Positions 49,566 through 60,030 of a stretch of 64,000 nt of DNA are shown here, one piece after another; the stretch's first letter is position 1; every line of letters starts with the position of its first letter. Position numbers and translations under genes: made by a program. The stretch spans positions 1 through 64,000 of the forward strand of contig VBFY01000063.1 of assembly GCA_005889405.1 (NCBI GenBank), in the 5' to 3' direction. A model generated the notes under the pieces. That model was not told the DNA's origin. It made no database searches and saw only the letters and a program-made list of their open reading frames with translations. This DNA is from Chloroflexota bacterium. Lineage in GTDB: Bacteria > Chloroflexota > Limnocylindria > P2-11E.

Positions 49566-49643
49566 GCCCTCGATACAACCTGTGAACGGACGGGTTCCGC
49601 CTCATTTCTGCGAGAATCGGCTCATCCGCCGGGGAGGTACGTG

Positions 49644-52379
49644 ATGCCCGCACGCCGCAGCGCGACGAGGAAGAAGACGACCACGAAGGCGAAGAAGTGG
49701 GTCTACCTCTTCGTCGATGGCAAGGCCGAGGGCAGCGCCAAGATGCGCTCGCTCCTCGGGGGCAAGGGCGCCGGCATCGCGGAAATGACGAACGCGGGGC
49801 TGCCGGTCCCTCCGGGCTTCACGATCACGACCGAGGCCTGCAACGCGTACTTCGCGTCGGGTAAGAAGTTCGCGCCCGGCCTATGGGATCAGGTCGAAAA
49901 GGCGCTCGCGCGCGTCGAGAAGTCCACCGGCAAGAAGCTCGGCGACCCGAGGAACCCGCTGCTCGTGTCCGTCCGCTCGGGCGCCGCGATGTCGATGCCC
50001 GGGATGATGGACACCGTCCTCAACCTCGGCCTCAACGACGAGAGCCGTGCCGCACTCGAAAAGCTGACAAAGAATCCGCGCTTCGCGTGGGATGCATACC
50101 GGCGCTTCATCTCGATGTTCGGTCGCATCGTGCAGGACATCCCAGCCGAGAAGTTCGACCACGCCCTCGAGGCGAAGAAGAAGGCGACCGGCGCGAAGAA
50201 CGACACCGACCTCACGCCGAAGTCCCTCCAGGACCTCGTCGTCGAGTTCAAGGAGATCGTTGGCCGCGAGACCAAGAAGCCGTTCCCCACGGAGCCGGTG
50301 GAGCAGCTGCGCCTCGCGATCGAGGCGGTCTTCGGCTCGTGGTTCGGCCGCCGTGCGGTCGACTACCGCAATGCGTTCAAGATCCGTCACGACCTCGGCA
50401 CGGCTGTGAATGTCCAGTCGATGGTCTTTGGAAACATGGGCGACGACTCCGGGACCGGCGTCGCGTTCACGCGCAATCCGAACACCGGCGCCAAGGAGCT
50501 GTACGGCGAGTACCTCGTGAACGCCCAGGGCGAGGATGTCGTCGCCGGCGTCCGCACGCCGTCGAAGATCGCCCAGATGAAAGACGAGCTGCCGAGGGTC
50601 TACACGCAGTTCGAGAAGATCGCGCAGCGCTTGGAGAAGCATTACCGCGACGTGCAGGACCTCGAGTTCACGATCGAGCGCGCGAAGCTCTACATGCTAC
50701 AGACGCGCAGCGCGAAGCGGACGGCGCGCGCGGCGGTGAAGATCGCGACCGACATGGTGCGCGAGAAGCTCATCAACAAGGACGAGGCGCTGCAGCGCGT
50801 GGACCCGCTGCACGTCGAGCAGCTCCTCCTGCCGCGCTTCGACGAAGCCGAGGTCGAGAAGGCGCGGAAGGCCGGTCGCTTCCTCGCGAAGGGCCTCAAT
50901 GCCTCGCCCGGAGCCGCGACCGGGCGCGCGGTGTTCGACGCCGATCGCGCCGTCGAGCTCAAGGGATCGAAACAGCTCGTCGTGCTCGTGCGCCCTGAGA
51001 CGAGCCCGGACGACTTCCACGGCATGATCGCGGCGACCGGCATCCTGACCGCACGCGGCGGGTCGACCAGTCACGCCGCGGTGGTCGCGCGCGGCCTCGG
51101 CCTTCCGTGCGTGGCCGGGGTCGCGGCGCTCGACATCGATCTCGCGAAGCGGCTGATGCGCGTCGGCGACAAGGTGGTGCGCGAGGGCGACGCGATCTCG
51201 ATCGACGGAACGACCGGCGAGGTCTTCCTCGGCGAGCTCCCGACGATCCAGCCGAACTTCCGCGAGGAGAAGGAGCTCATCGAGCTGCTCACGTGGGCCG
51301 ACCAGCGCCGCACCCTCGGTGTCTGGGTCAACGCGGATACGCCCGAGGAGTGCCGTCTCGCGCGCGAGCTCGGCGCCGAGGGTGTCGGTCTCGCGCGGAC
51401 GGAGCACATGTTCCGGCAGGCCGAGCGCCTGCCGATCGTGCAGGACATGATCATGGCCGACGAAGTTGACGGTCGAAGGAAGGCGCTCGCGAAGTTGCTT
51501 CCGTTCCAGCAGGGCGACTTCTTCGAGATGTACAAGGCGATGGATGGTCTCTCCGTCGTGATCCGACTCATCGACCCGCCGCTGCACGAGTTCCTCCGCG
51601 AGTACGCCGACGTGGACGTGGACATCGCGGTGATGCGCGCGACCGGCAAGGACGGCGCGGAGCTCGAGCGCAAGGAGAAGATCGAGCGACGGCTGCAGCA
51701 GCTGCACGAGGACAACCCGATGCTCGGCCTGCGCGGCTGCCGTCTCCTGCTGGTGTACCCCGAGATCCTCGAGATGCAGATCCGCGCGATCCTCGGCGCG
51801 GCGATCGATGCCTCGGAGAAGGGGATCAAGGCGAAGCCCGAGATCATGATGCCGCTCGTCGGCGTCATGGGAGAGCTCGACCGCCTGCAGCAACAGGTCG
51901 TCGCGGTCGCCGAGGCGATCTTCAAGGAGCGCGGCAAGAAAGTACCGTACAAGTTCGGGACGATGATCGAGATCCCGCGCGCGTGTCTCATCGCCGACGA
52001 GATCGCGACGAAGGCGGAGTTCTTCTCGTTCGGGACGAACGACCTCACGCAGACGATCCTCGGCATCTCGCGTGACGACGCGCAGAAGAGCTTCCTCACG
52101 AAGTACGTCGAGCAGAAGATCATCCCCGCGGACCCGTTCCAGGTGCTCGACCGCGACGGCGTCGGAGCGATGATGCGCATCGCCATCGAGCGCGGACGCA
52201 AGGCGCGGCCCGACCTCAAGATCGGTATCTGTGGCGAGCACGGCGGGGATCCGTCGTCGATCGCGTTCTGCCACGAGGTCGGCCTCACGTATGTGTCACC
52301 GTCGACGTACCGCGTGCCCGTAGCGCGTCTCGCGGCCGCGCAGGCCGCCATCGCTGGGGCAAGGGACAAGGACCGTTAG
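49644..52379 (+). CDS. ppdK: Pyruvate, phosphate dikinase
   Basis: PPDK interconverts pyruvate, ATP and phosphate with phosphoenolpyruvate, AMP and pyrophosphate. The 911-residue protein starts with a Lys/Arg/Thr-rich stretch, then the ATP-grasp domain (LLGGKGAGIAEMTNAGLPVPPGFTI), the phosphohistidine domain ARGGSTSHAAVVARGLGLP (His477) and the PEP-binding barrel with GLRGCRLLLVYPEI and ICGEHGGDP (Cys near 863). I chose ATG 49644 because GGGGAGG is at the right distance; a GTG one codon upstream is too close. It allows gluconeogenesis or pyrophosphate-linked glycolysis. Confidence 0.97.
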   Translation: MPARRSATRKKTTTKAKKWVYLFVDGKAEGSAKMRSLLGGKGAGIAEMTNAGLPVPPGFTITTEACNAYFASGKKFAPGLWDQVEKALARVEKSTGKKLGDPRNPLLVSVRSGAAMSMPGMMDTVLNLGLNDESRAALEKLTKNPRFAWDAYRRFISMFGRIVQDIPAEKFDHALEAKKKATGAKNDTDLTPKSLQDLVVEFKEIVGRETKKPFPTEPVEQLRLAIEAVFGSWFGRRAVDYRNAFKIRHDLGTAVNVQSMVFGNMGDDSGTGVAFTRNPNTGAKELYGEYLVNAQGEDVVAGVRTPSKIAQMKDELPRVYTQFEKIAQRLEKHYRDVQDLEFTIERAKLYMLQTRSAKRTARAAVKIATDMVREKLINKDEALQRVDPLHVEQLLLPRFDEAEVEKARKAGRFLAKGLNASPGAATGRAVFDADRAVELKGSKQLVVLVRPETSPDDFHGMIAATGILTARGGSTSHAAVVARGLGLPCVAGVAALDIDLAKRLMRVGDKVVREGDAISIDGTTGEVFLGELPTIQPNFREEKELIELLTWADQRRTLGVWVNADTPEECRLARELGAEGVGLARTEHMFRQAERLPIVQDMIMADEVDGRRKALAKLLPFQQGDFFEMYKAMDGLSVVIRLIDPPLHEFLREYADVDVDIAVMRATGKDGAELERKEKIERRLQQLHEDNPMLGLRGCRLLLVYPEILEMQIRAILGAAIDASEKGIKAKPEIMMPLVGVMGELDRLQQQVVAVAEAIFKERGKKVPYKFGTMIEIPRACLIADEIATKAEFFSFGTNDLTQTILGISRDDAQKSFLTKYVEQKIIPADPFQVLDRDGVGAMMRIAIERGRKARPDLKIGICGEHGGDPSSIAFCHEVGLTYVSPSTYRVPVARLAAAQAAIAGARDKDR

Positions 52380-52380
52380 C

Positions 52381-53148
52381 GCTGAGTCGCTCGGAAAGAT
52401 CTGCGACCGTGGGGAGAACGACGATACCCGCGGATATCCAGATCCTCGGCACGAGACCAAGATCATCGAACGCCACGCCAGGCTTGCCGGTCGTGATGTG
52501 CTGGAGGTGGGCTGCGGGAACGGACGGCTCACCTTGGAATACGCCGCGCGCGCAGCACGTGTCGTCGCCATCGAACCCAACGGCGAGATGATCCGGGAGG
52601 CGCGCGCGCGCGCGCTCTCCCGCGGCATCGAGAACGCGTTCTTCTTCGCGCGCCCGGCCCAGACGGGAATCCGCGGTGGACCATTCGATGTAGTGCTCTT
52701 CTCCTGGTCACTCTGCTGAATCGCGCAGGAGGGCATGGTCGATGCCCTGCGGAACGCCCGACGCGTGCTGCGGAGGCGTGGGCTGGTGGTCGTCGTGCAG
52801 CCCGCGGATGACTACACGCCACGTCTCGCCATCGCGCACGACCGCGGCCGAACAGAACTCGGTCCGATATTGCGGACGCCGGACGAGGGCGTCGCCGCCG
52901 CCCACCGCGCACGGCGCAGCGCGGTCGCCGAAGGTGGCTTCTCACTGCTCGTGTCGACGCACGGCACGCATCGCACGCGCTACCGCGGTCTCACCGAGCT
53001 GCGCTGGTTACTCCGCCAGAACGAGAACTGGCGGATCGACCCGCCGCTCTGGCGACGACTGGTCGCGCTGTGGGCGCGACGGCCTCAGGGCGCGCAGATC
53101 GAAGTGCGTCGAGCGTACTCGCTGGCCGTCCTGCGAAAGCGCGAGTGA
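52381..53148 (+). pseudogene. Class I SAM methyltransferase interrupted by an in-frame TGA
   Basis: The frame encodes a Rossmann methyltransferase: DVLEVGCGNGRLTLEYA (SAM-binding motif I), VVAIEPNGEMI, PFDVVLFSWSLC, then TGA at 52717-52719, then IAQEGMVDALRNARRVLRRRGLVVVVQP and 137 codons to a normal stop. Both halves are in the same frame. The TGA sits just after the fourth strand, where homologues have Trp, His or Cys, so TGG to TGA is the simplest explanation. The upstream coding-like sequence (GKICDRGE..., PDPRHETKIIERHARLAG) has no ATG, GTG or TTG before a GTG at 52498. That also favours a decayed gene. A hairpin directly after the TGA raises selenocysteine as an alternative. Substrate unknown. 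Confidence 0.6.
52720..52751 (+). promoter_or_regulatory. SECIS-like hairpin after the in-frame TGA
   Basis: Six pairs GGGCAT (52731-52736) with ATGCCC (52742-52747) enclose the loop GGTCG. A lower CGCA/TGCG stem (52724-52727 with 52748-52751) is separated by a three-base bulge. The loop begins 17 bases after the TGA. The E. coli fdhF element likewise has a GGUC loop and a bulged stem 18 bases after its UGA. GC-rich coding DNA forms many hairpins, so this may be chance. Confidence 0.3.
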
Positions 53149-53155
53149 GCCCCGC

Positions 53156-53161
53156 TAGTCT
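53156..53161 (+). promoter_or_regulatory. Leaderless -10 box for dgt
   Basis: TAGTCT ends 7 bases before the ATG of dgt, the same box and spacing as at 46561. No Shine-Dalgarno is present. Confidence 0.5.
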
Positions 53162-53168
53162 TAGCGCT

Positions 53169-54257
53169 ATGGCCACCAAAGTTGAGCGCGGCGGAAAACT
53201 ATCGCGCGACAAGAGCGTCGCGTCGCTGCGGATACGCGAGCGTTCAGAGGAGCTCGAGGGCACGACCCTCGCGCCGTATGCCACGAAGAGCGCGGACGGC
53301 CGGCGCGACAGACCGGACGAGCCGTCGCCGACGCGGATGGCGTTCGCGGTCGACCGCGACCGGATCATCCACAGCAAGGCCTTCCGCCGCACGAAGCACA
53401 AGACGCAGGTCTTCCTCGCTCCGGTGGGCGATCACTACCGGACGCGCCTCACGCACATCCTCGAGGTGAACCAGATCGGTCGCGCGATCGCGCGCGCGCT
53501 GCGTCTCAATGAGGATCTGGTCGAGGCCATGGCGCTCGGCCACGACATCGGGCACACGCCGTTCGGTCACACCGGCGAGGAGCTGCTCGCGCGGTTCCTG
53601 CCCGAAGGGTTCCGTCACAACCAGCAGAGCGTCCGCATCGCCGAGAAGCTCGAGAACAACGGCGCGGGTCTGAGGCTGACGATGCAGACGCTCGACGGCA
53701 TGCTCAAGCACAGCTCGCCGACGGAAGGCGGGCTCGAGACGGCGGCATGGGGCGAGCCGGAGACGCCGGAGGGCTGGGTCGTGCGGTACGCGGACAAGAT
53801 CGCGTACCTGCACCACGACATCGACGACGCGATGCGGGCCGGGATCATCACCGAAGCAGACCTGCCTCCGGACCTTCGCGCCGCGCTTGGGAGTGACCGC
53901 GCGGAGCGCCTCGATACGATGATCTACGACGTCATCGTCACGTCGTACGGCAAGCCCGACGTGACGATGAGCGCCGCGGTGCTCGAGGCGACGAACGCGC
54001 TGCGCAAGTTCATGTTCGATAACGTGTACCTCTCCGGGCCGGCCAAGACCGAAGACGAGAAAGCGCAGGGTGTCCTCTGGGAACTCCTGCGGTACTTCGA
54101 AGCCCACCCGGAGCGCATGCCGGCGGAGCACCAGCGGATCGCCGCCCAGGAGAACACCAAGCGGGCCGTCGCCGATTACATCGCCGGGATGACGGACACC
54201 TACGCCCTCGACACGTTCACGAGCCTGTTCATCCCCGCCGCCTGGAGCCATCTCTAG
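53169..54257 (+). CDS. dgt: Deoxyguanosinetriphosphate triphosphohydrolase-like HD protein
   Basis: The 362-residue protein belongs to the dNTPase branch of the HD superfamily, which splits dNTPs to deoxynucleosides and triphosphate. Metal ligands are in TRLTHILEVNQ (His) and LGHDIGHTPFGHTGEE (His-Asp). The FRRTKHKTQVF lead-in, FRHNQQSVRI and RYADKIAYLHHDIDDA are typical of the shorter, non-E. coli subtype. I chose ATG 53169 over an upstream in-frame start because of the -10 box and because the extra N-terminus is shadow of the methyltransferase frame. Confidence 0.92.
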   Translation: MATKVERGGKLSRDKSVASLRIRERSEELEGTTLAPYATKSADGRRDRPDEPSPTRMAFAVDRDRIIHSKAFRRTKHKTQVFLAPVGDHYRTRLTHILEVNQIGRAIARALRLNEDLVEAMALGHDIGHTPFGHTGEELLARFLPEGFRHNQQSVRIAEKLENNGAGLRLTMQTLDGMLKHSSPTEGGLETAAWGEPETPEGWVVRYADKIAYLHHDIDDAMRAGIITEADLPPDLRAALGSDRAERLDTMIYDVIVTSYGKPDVTMSAAVLEATNALRKFMFDNVYLSGPAKTEDEKAQGVLWELLRYFEAHPERMPAEHQRIAAQENTKRAVADYIAGMTDTYALDTFTSLFIPAAWSHL

Positions 54258-57066: not shown

Positions 57067-57122
57067 CATCGCATGACCGCGCGCGCCGCGTGGTGCCGCG
57101 AATGTTCGCAACGCCCGGCCGC

Positions 57123-57128
57123 TAACGT
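57123..57128 (+). promoter_or_regulatory. Leaderless -10 box for dnaG
   Basis: TAACGT ends 7 bases before ATG 57136, the dnaG start. This box supports ATG 57136 over the in-frame ATG at 57073. Confidence 0.5.
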
Positions 57129-57135
57129 TGTGGCG

Positions 57136-60030
57136 ATGCCTGGTGATTTCGACCTGGTCAAAGAGCGCGTCGACATCGTCCAACTGATCAGCGAGAGCGT
57201 TCCCCTCAAGAAAGCTGGTCGCGGCTACGTCGGGCTGTGCCCGTTCCATCTTGAGAAGACGCCCTCGTTCCATGTCGATGCCGAGCGCCGGACGTACAAG
57301 TGTTTCGGTTGCTTGCCGCCGGATGCGCTGATCAAGACCGCAGACGGCCCACGGCCCATTCAAGACATTAAGCCGGGTGAGTTGGTGTACGCGGGAGACG
57401 GACGGCTCCACGAAGTGGTGGTGACGCATGAGCACGCTTTTACCGGGTCCCTCGTGAAGTTGATCTGCGCTCCGTTCAAGGTGCCGCTGCTTCTCACGCC
57501 AGATCACAAGATCCCGATCCTGCGCCCGAAGAGTCGGCGCGCCGAGGAGATCGAGGCTGTGCGGATCAGACCGCAGAACTATCTGATCTATCCGCCCGTG
57601 GACCGCCACGCCGGATCAATCAGCTGGGACGCCCTGTCAGCGTGGCTCCGCCCCAAGGGAAAGCGTCCCAAGCCGTTACCGCTTCAAGTGGAGACCGTGG
57701 TCTTCGCGGAGTGGCTTGGCTGGTATCTCGCCGAAGGGAGCGTCAGCAACGATCGGAGTGTTCGATTCAGCCTGTCGTCGGATGAGTTCGCAGTCGCGCA
57801 GCGCTTGGCGGAACTGACCGACGGACTGTTCGAAGAGAAACTGAAGATGTCGCGGGAAGGTTCACGTATCGAACTGTGGTTCTGCCACGCCCTCCTAGCA
57901 CGCTGGCTAAAGCATTACTGTGGAGACGGCTCTCATAACAAACGACTTCCCGACTTCGTCTGGGGATGGCAGTCCCGTGAGCAATGGGAACTGCTACGTG
58001 CGCTGGTCCAAGGAGATGGGAGCATTTCTCGCGGCGGATACGTCGCGCAATATGGATTTGTCGCGAAGCCTTCGTGGGAACTGACACTGGCGTCGGCGCG
58101 GCTCATCGATGACGTTCGCGACCTTGTAATTGCGAATGGCGTGATTCCTACCGTTAGGGAATACCACCACCAGGATGGGCGCAGGGCTTGGACGGTGGGT
58201 GTCAAGGGAGACCCGCGACAAGGTTGGAGCGGTGGCGAGCACCGACCGACGGATCTCGTGTGTGTCCGTGTGCGGAAGGTTGAGCGTGTCGAGTACGACG
58301 GCCCGGTGTTCAACCTCACGGTTGCAGACCAACACACATATCTCACGATGTCCGGCACAGTCTGCAACTGTGGTGAAGGGGGCGATGTTTTCACCTGGCT
58401 CGAAAAGCAGAGAGGTCTTTCGCCTTCGGAAGCGCTCAAGGAACTCGCCGATCGCGCCGGTGTCGAGCTGACGCGCCGCGCGCCCGAGGAGCGCAAGTTC
58501 GAAGATCGGCTGCTTCAGGCCAACGACGCGGCGGCGTTCTACTTCCGCCAGGCCTTGCGCGGCACGCCACGCGGCAAGACCGTGGCGGAATACCTCGGCA
58601 AGCGCGGCATCACGCCCGAGTCGATCGACGCCTTCGGCATCGGGTACGCGCCGGACGAGCGCGGCAGCCTCCTCGCCTACCTAAAGAAGAAGGGTTTCAG
58701 CGAGGACGAGGGCGTCGCGGCGGGGTTGATCTTCAAGAACGAGAACGGGCTGTGGGATCGGTTCCGAGACCGACTGATGGTCCCGATCCGCGACCGGCGC
58801 GGCCGGGCCATCGCCTTCGGCGGCCGGGCCATGCGCGCGGACCAGCAGGGGAAGTACGTCAATTCCGCCCAAACCGCGCTGTTCAACAAGAGCGCCACGC
58901 TCTACGGCCTGGACAAGGCAAGCGCGGCCATCCGCAAGGAGGGCACGGCGGTGATCGTCGAGGGGTACTTCGACACCATCGCCTGCCACCAATCGGGTTT
59001 CACCAACGTCGTGGCTTCGATGGGCACCGCGCTCACCGAAGACCAGTACCGCGTGCTCAACGACATGAAGATCGAGCGGGCGATCGTCGCCTTCGACGGC
59101 GACGCCGCCGGGCAGCGCTCCGCCGAGTCACGCGGCCGGGAGCTCCTGAGCGCCCTCAGCCGATTCGGCTCAGATGCGGGCGGCGGGAGCCTCGGCACCC
59201 GCACCGGCCTCGCGCTCTTCGTCACCGTGCTGCCCGAGGGTCTGGACCCCGACGACGTCGCCCGAAAGGAGCCCGAGGTCTTCCGCCAACTGTTGGCCGA
59301 CGCCAAGCCCCTGCTCGAGTTCCTGATCGACCGGGTCCGCGCGGCCTCGCGCCTCGACCAGTCCGAGGGCAGGCTGCGCTTTCTTCAGCGGACCGCGGCG
59401 CTCATCGCCGAGGAGCCCGATCCGGTCCGGCGTGAGGTCTATCTGTCCGAGGTCGCGGGAAGCGCCGGGGTCGACCCGGCGTTCTTGAGAGAGCGGCTCC
59501 CAGCGGCCGGAAAGGGTACGCAGCGGACAGCGCGCACTCCGGCGGAGCCGGTCAAAGCAGCCAGCGAAGGCCCGACTCCGAAACAAACTCCTTCTCGCGA
59601 GCGTTACGTAATCGCACTATTAATTCGCTATCCGGAGGAGATCGCGCGCGCCGACCTCGCCCCAACTGACCTGGTAGACCCCCTCCTGCGTGCGCTCTAC
59701 GAACAGCTCCAGGCGGGGAAGCGTCCGGACTCTGACTTGCCGGCTCAACAGGCCGCCCTTGCCGCGGCACTTGGCGCCAATGCGCCTGAGCTCGACGAAC
59801 AGACGGACCCAGGCCAGGTGATCGAGATCGCAGCGCGCAACCTCCGGGTAGAGAACTTGCGGCGGCGTCTGGGTGACGCGCGGGAGCAGCTCGCGCGCGC
59901 CGAAGGTGACGTCGGGGGGTTGGATGGCGAGATCGCGCGGATGGTCGAGGACCTCGATCAGCTCATGAAACGACGCGAGCGCCGGACCGTCCTGCACAGC
60001 AGCGAGCTGCTACGAGAAGAGGATCGATGA
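57136..60030 (+). CDS. dnaG: DNA primase with an intein in its zinc finger
   Basis: DnaG makes RNA primers for replication. The precursor has 964 residues; removing the 353-residue intein leaves 611, the normal length. The zinc-binding domain has Cys35, His38, Cys56 and, after splicing, the Cys that directly follows the intein, giving the usual [13 protein letters not shown]. Downstream are the catalytic core with [34 protein letters not shown], the TOPRIM motif [17 protein letters not shown] (Glu), [10 protein letters not shown] (Asp-x-Asp), and a helical C-terminal DnaB-interacting part. I chose ATG 57136 because the family begins there and TAACGT lies just upstream. The stop overlaps rpoD (ATGA). 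Confidence 0.96.
57310..58368 (+). mobile_element. LAGLIDADG-type intein in DnaG
   Basis: The 353-residue intein has all expected parts in order. Cys1 opens block A ([13 protein letters not shown]). Block B has T63-P-D-H66 in LLLTPDH. The homing endonuclease domain has two LAGLIDADG-type helices, [10 protein letters not shown] (136-145) and [12 protein letters not shown] (228-239). Block F is [14 protein letters not shown] (333-346), and block G is VCN ending at Asn353, followed by extein Cys. The penultimate residue is Cys instead of the usual His. The G+C content is about 52-60% in three 60-base samples against 72-77% in two flanking dnaG samples, a sign of recent arrival. Both endonuclease motifs look intact, so the element may still be mobile. 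Confidence 0.93.

Follow-up and report, generated by a model that had tools for sequence, protein, structure and literature searches.

In the window (the whole 64,000-nucleotide stretch of Chloroflexota DNA analysed here) a class I SAM-methyltransferase frame at positions 52384–53148 of the forward strand runs through an in-frame TGA at 52717–52719, directly after the residues ...FSWSLC. Does this TGA mark the death of a gene, or does it encode selenocysteine (Sec)? A sequence-only reading had set these two possibilities against each other – a nonsense change of tryptophan (TGG to TGA) in a dying gene, and a selenocysteine in a new selenoprotein – and had preferred the first. The analyses below leave that preference unsupported and, for the family to which the gene belongs, provide strong support for the second.

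No stop other than the internal TGA interrupts the frame between a TAG at 52321 and its terminal TGA at 53146–53148; from 52384, and with the internal TGA read through, it comprises 254 residues plus the terminal stop. The read-through product matches PF13649 with an E value of 7.8e-17 (62.2 bits, against a gathering cut-off of 27) and six further methyltransferase models, and the matches cover residues 25–140, spanning the TGA. GC content by codon position is of the coding type on both sides (0.68/0.51/0.77 before the TGA and 0.77/0.54/0.82 after it). These matches and the GC pattern bear out the earlier observation that the frame is open on either side of the TGA, and an in-frame UGA with coding sequence to both sides is what is expected of a selenoprotein gene. 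SAM-binding motif I, LEVGCGNGRL, lies at 52501–52530 (+; ends approximate) and is defined by its sequence and by the invariant G43, G45, G47 and R48 in an alignment of 21 members. By profile and by motif I the product is thus a predicted class I SAM-dependent methyltransferase, enzymatic function being putative.

The residues found at the TGA position in homologues discriminate between the two readings. Relatives from the same genus, family and order carry WSL or WTL followed by TGA-TGA or TGA-TGC. A family profile built from 21 members, all of one order (alignment A1), detected members in 24 of the 177 class genomes, again all of one order and with one or two TGA codons in each match, and in 48 of 400 genomes sampled from the phylum. 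The lone match listed without a TGA (G085) proved to be frameshifted: its other frame reads LSLUU-IAIQGMVHAL. The family is characterised by a dyad of adjacent residues. In the window copy position one is a TGC (Cys111; 52714–52716, +), a site at which 63 of 66 distinct relatives have TGA, and position two is the in-frame TGA (Sec112; 52717–52719, +), at which every relative has either TGA or Cys. Among the 66 distinct proteins 43 are Sec-Sec (UU), 20 Sec-Cys (UC) and three Cys-Sec (CU); Cys-Cys, Trp and His occur at the dyad in none of the 66 from the sampled genomes of this phylum. The alignment of homologues at this residue, which the sequence-only reading had proposed as a check, hence speaks for selenocysteine: Sec aligns with Cys and with no other residue.

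The dyad layouts require 13 changes on an IQ-TREE tree, and the three CU layouts (the window copy, G289 and G512) represent three separate events. A second family copy in G512 (contig C19) also has the Cys-Sec layout, with one TGA and one in-frame TAA, and may be decaying. All 21 members of the order encode Leu110, just before the UGA, by CTC, and most of the phylum uses either CTC or CTT, a hint that the sequence 5′ of a recoded UGA is itself constrained.

Downstream of the TGA, at 52731–52747 (+), is a hairpin with the form of a bacterial SECIS element, GGGCAU-GGUCG-AUGCCC, with a 6-bp stem and its loop at 52737–52741. It had been described as a hairpin beginning 17 bases after the TGA; the hairpin is real, but 17 nt is the distance to the loop, and the stem begins at 11 nt. 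Even with two mismatches allowed, the window holds a single instance of the hairpin core, GGGCATGGTCGATGCCC (0.04 expected). The free energy of the surrounding 60-nt stretch is not by itself unusual (z −0.71), and it is the comparative evidence of covariation and synonymous constraint, rather than the free energy of a single sequence, that marks the hairpin as more than a product of chance. When 64 distinct sequences from the phylum are compared with the spacing held constant, pairing is kept in 99.5% of stem cells, and five of the six stem pairs have double changes (a total of 19 cells). None of 500 shuffles reaches this level of pairing, sliding the partner strand gives 27–60%, and an unguided structure search recovers the same hairpin. 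In the loop, every sequence has G at column 25, and 63 of the 64 have the U that follows it. At the codon level the hairpin (GGC-ATG-GTC-GAT-GCC) is identical in 21 members of the order: not one synonymous change separates them, whereas codon entropy averages about 1 bit at the remaining invariant residues. A caution is that F87 and L110 likewise use a single codon each.

Published criteria for bacterial SECIS elements are an apical loop of 3–9 nt, an upper stem of 4–16 bp, a G in loop positions 1–2, a distance of 16–37 nt from UGA to loop and a minimum free energy of −7.5 or lower (PMC13188914). The hairpin has a loop of 5 nt (GGUCG), a stem of 6 bp, a spacing of 17 nt and, for the bare 17-mer, −9.0 kcal/mol, and so falls within all of them. 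It resembles the SECIS of E. coli fdhF in lying directly 3′ of the UGA and in its GGUC-type apical loop, but differs in the codons ahead of it: in the family, UGAUGA, UGAUGC/UGAUGU or UGC/UGU-UGA precedes one hairpin at a constant distance.

Selenocysteine also requires dedicated machinery, and a search of the genome for it, likewise proposed beforehand, found every component. The genome encodes a tRNA-Sec with anticodon UCA (C48:5461-5552, 74.3 bits), selA (C70:191994-193304), selB (C70:193888-195732) and a Sec-type selD (C99:38989-39909), the last with one in-frame TGA and probably itself a selenoprotein; selA, selB, selD and tRNA-Sec thus occur together, as in a selenoprotein-producing genome. 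Across the phylum a strong tRNA-Sec match is present in 30 of the 38 other family-positive genomes, and the remaining eight (six of family f19, plus G289 and G454) all have selB above the cut-off. The four genomes tested that have neither tRNA-Sec nor the family gave only EF-Tu-level selB matches. Seven f19 genomes count to some degree against the selenocysteine reading: they have selB above the cut-off, and six of them carry Sec-Sec family genes, but at E<=1e-11 none of the seven gives a match to tRNA-Sec. Possibly they have a divergent form of this tRNA.

Taken together, these comparisons make it very probable that selenocysteine is encoded by the TGA at 52717 and that the gene belongs, as a divergent member, to a family of selenoproteins with a class I SAM methyltransferase fold. 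The possibility that the sequence-only reading had ranked second, a new selenoprotein, is the one that has gained ground, through the family-wide TGA, the exchange of Sec for Cys, the covarying hairpin and the presence of the Sec machinery. The nonsense change that it had thought the more likely draws on the missing start codon of the window copy (see below), but no relative has Trp at this position: all have Cys or TGA, never TGG or a His codon, and the same TGA recurs in dozens of genomes accompanied by the covarying hairpin. The alignment of homologues rules this explanation out, and we accord it next to no probability. Much the same applies to a genome-wide reassignment of UGA (for instance to Trp or Gly), under which the frame would be that of an ordinary gene. 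The frame is indeed open under such a code, but UGA otherwise acts as a stop, ending three of the 14 confident genes in the window and the 52384–53148 gene itself; moreover in-frame TGA is confined to positions at which it exchanges with Cys and is accompanied by a SECIS hairpin, and the genome carries tRNA-Sec(UCA) and selAB. In view of the TGA stops in the window and the tRNA-Sec(UCA), reassignment is rejected as exceedingly improbable.

How would such a dyad be decoded? The family signature, W-S/T-L-X-X just after strand beta-4, is Sec-Sec, Sec-Cys or Cys-Sec. We suggest that SelB carrying Sec-tRNA(UCA) would bind the hairpin 11 nt after the second UGA and that one or both UGAs would then be decoded; selenium insertion itself is predicted from these sequence features. 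In tandem members the same hairpin stands 14 nt after the first UGA of TGATGA and 11 nt after the second, UC members use the first UGA only and CU members the second only. In Sec-Sec members a single hairpin would thus have to serve the UGAUGA tandem, and apparently it does, given that the aligned stretch holds no second conserved element. It is likely that two adjacent UGAs are both decoded as Sec by way of one SECIS hairpin, in the active site of a SAM methyltransferase, and that at least one Sec is obligatory; the latter is suggested by the presence of Sec in 66 of 66 distinct proteins, none of them Cys-Cys. The combination of UGAUGA with a single hairpin offers a natural test of SECIS reach and SelB reuse, and the lack of a Cys-Cys form in the sampled phylum suggests chemistry beyond that of sulfur alone, which makes the reaction worth finding.

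The family appears to be undescribed: methyltransferase-like selenoproteins with one or two neighbouring UGA codons. Seven members, including the window protein, were scanned against NCBIfam release 20 and none passes the cut-off of any model. Among the closest known systems, the Sec forms of ArsM (NF008823) and the fusions NF041536 and NF041537 likewise have a class I SAM methyltransferase fold, but partial matches to the ArsM and fusion models reach at most 61 bits against cut-offs of 263–575 bits; for ArsM itself the seven members score at most 55 against 263, and the listed Sec motif is UxxG, whereas the family has WSL-UU/UC/CU after beta-4. No ars context was seen. MduS (NF045649), a methyltransferase-domain double selenoprotein, shares the PF13649 domain and has two Sec, but its listed motif is CxxU in a 338-position model, and the scanned proteins score 23–44 bits against a cut-off of 380. 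Of the NCBIfam models, CpaM (NF043040), a corrinoid protein-associated methyltransferase, gives the window protein its highest score, 69 bits against a cut-off of 180; matches to this model have ordinary residues (SGLCFSE..) at the dyad site and no TGA. With scores so far under the cut-offs, identity with CpaM, MduS or ArsM is ruled out.

The 2026 inventory of prokaryotic selenoproteins includes MduS (CxxU), ArsM and its fusions (UxxG) and others (PMC13188914). Its 119 families, taken as the citing review presents the primary papers, hold no adjacent Sec-Sec and no WSLUU. By motif the family is therefore missing from both the inventory and NCBIfam, yet about 12% of the phylum genomes sampled contain it. 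Standard gene calling would truncate its members at the TGA.

What the family does is a separate question. An AlphaFold2 model (pLDDT 88.3, pTM 0.86) places strand beta-4 at residues 101–107 and the dyad, 111–112, directly after it; Foldseek and sequence profiles find nothing more specific than generic class I SAM methyltransferases, and in many ordinary relatives HH or HE takes the place of the dyad. In class I methyltransferases the loop after beta-4 borders the acceptor pocket. A dyad at the methyl-acceptor pocket would be placed to bind or activate a soft substrate – a metalloid, a chalcogen or a thiol – for methylation. Because of this position, directly after beta-4 in the loop bordering the pocket, we tentatively prefer to a redox role a reaction in which the Sec/Cys dyad holds or activates a soft substrate for SAM-dependent methylation, and regard it as somewhat short of an even bet. 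The fold could instead have been reused, the dyad serving as a redox couple (selenenylsulfide or diselenide) and not in methyl transfer. A vicinal diselenide or selenenylsulfide could arise between neighbouring Sec-Sec or Sec-Cys residues, and a redox role is the one presumed for most selenoproteins (PMC13188914); against this, the glycine-rich SAM motif is near-invariant, and there is neither a Trx-like fold nor a redox-partner gene nearby. We consider a redox couple rather unlikely. The neighbourhoods of family genes give no clue to the substrate: they are not conserved across the phylum and consist of varying, ordinary genes (lysyl-tRNA synthetase, GH57, gas vesicle, ADH, UPRTase and RNase PH).

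The window gene is the second copy in its genome, has diverged, and sits as an insertion between a pyruvate phosphate dikinase gene (ppdK; 49641–52379, +) and a gene for an HD-domain dGTPase-like phosphohydrolase (53169–54257, +). In G002 and G004, whose dGTPases are 92–94% identical, the gap between PPDK and dGTPase is about 10 nt with no gene between them; in the window it is 785 bp, bordered by 8-bp direct repeats, TTAGCGCT, at 52376–52383 (+; left border) and 53161–53168 (+; right border, directly before the dGTPase ATG). Other repeats of 8–9 bp arise by chance in this stretch, and only the placement at both borders is suggestive. No transposase was seen at the 52376–53168 insertion, and plasmid records gave no match. 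The other copy in the same genome (C38:18414-19025) has the motif WTL-TGA-TGC. A contig scan with the single protein gave just one generic match. The tree places the window copy not with its own-genome counterpart but with proteins from families f19 and f22 (support 92/75, on a long branch).

Is this copy itself expressed? The missing start codon reported earlier is confirmed: upstream of the SAM motif there is no ATG, GTG or TTG in frame, so expression of the window copy is unproven. The most plausible start is an ATC at 52399–52401 (+), about where the nearest members of the subfamily have ATG; it may be an AUC at which translation begins, what is left of a lost start, or an error in the consensus. 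The copy could be the non-expressed relic of a genuine selenoprotein gene that was inserted and then lost its start, its TGA being still the old Sec codon. The lack of an in-frame ATG, GTG or TTG, the site left empty in G002 and G004 together with the flanking 8-bp direct repeats, and the long branch (1.22) all point this way. Against it, the copy retains 20 of the family's 21 near-invariant positions, which argues against long decay, and the exact hairpin; it runs for 250 codons without a frameshift or further stop, the one TGA that it has being common to its relatives; its GC by codon position is coding-type; and the ATC stands where a start is expected, with AUC initiation or a consensus error as possible accounts of it. 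The copy does not display the decayed conserved positions, frameshifts and unshared stops by which a pseudogene is recognised. It has no orthologue in its genus, so that selection on it cannot be measured. On balance we think a relic conceivable, though doubtful.

Elsewhere in the window, the gene for DNA primase DnaG (57073–60030, +) seems to be interrupted within its CHC2 zinc ribbon by an intein, with a LAGLIDADG-like stretch at residues 306–373.
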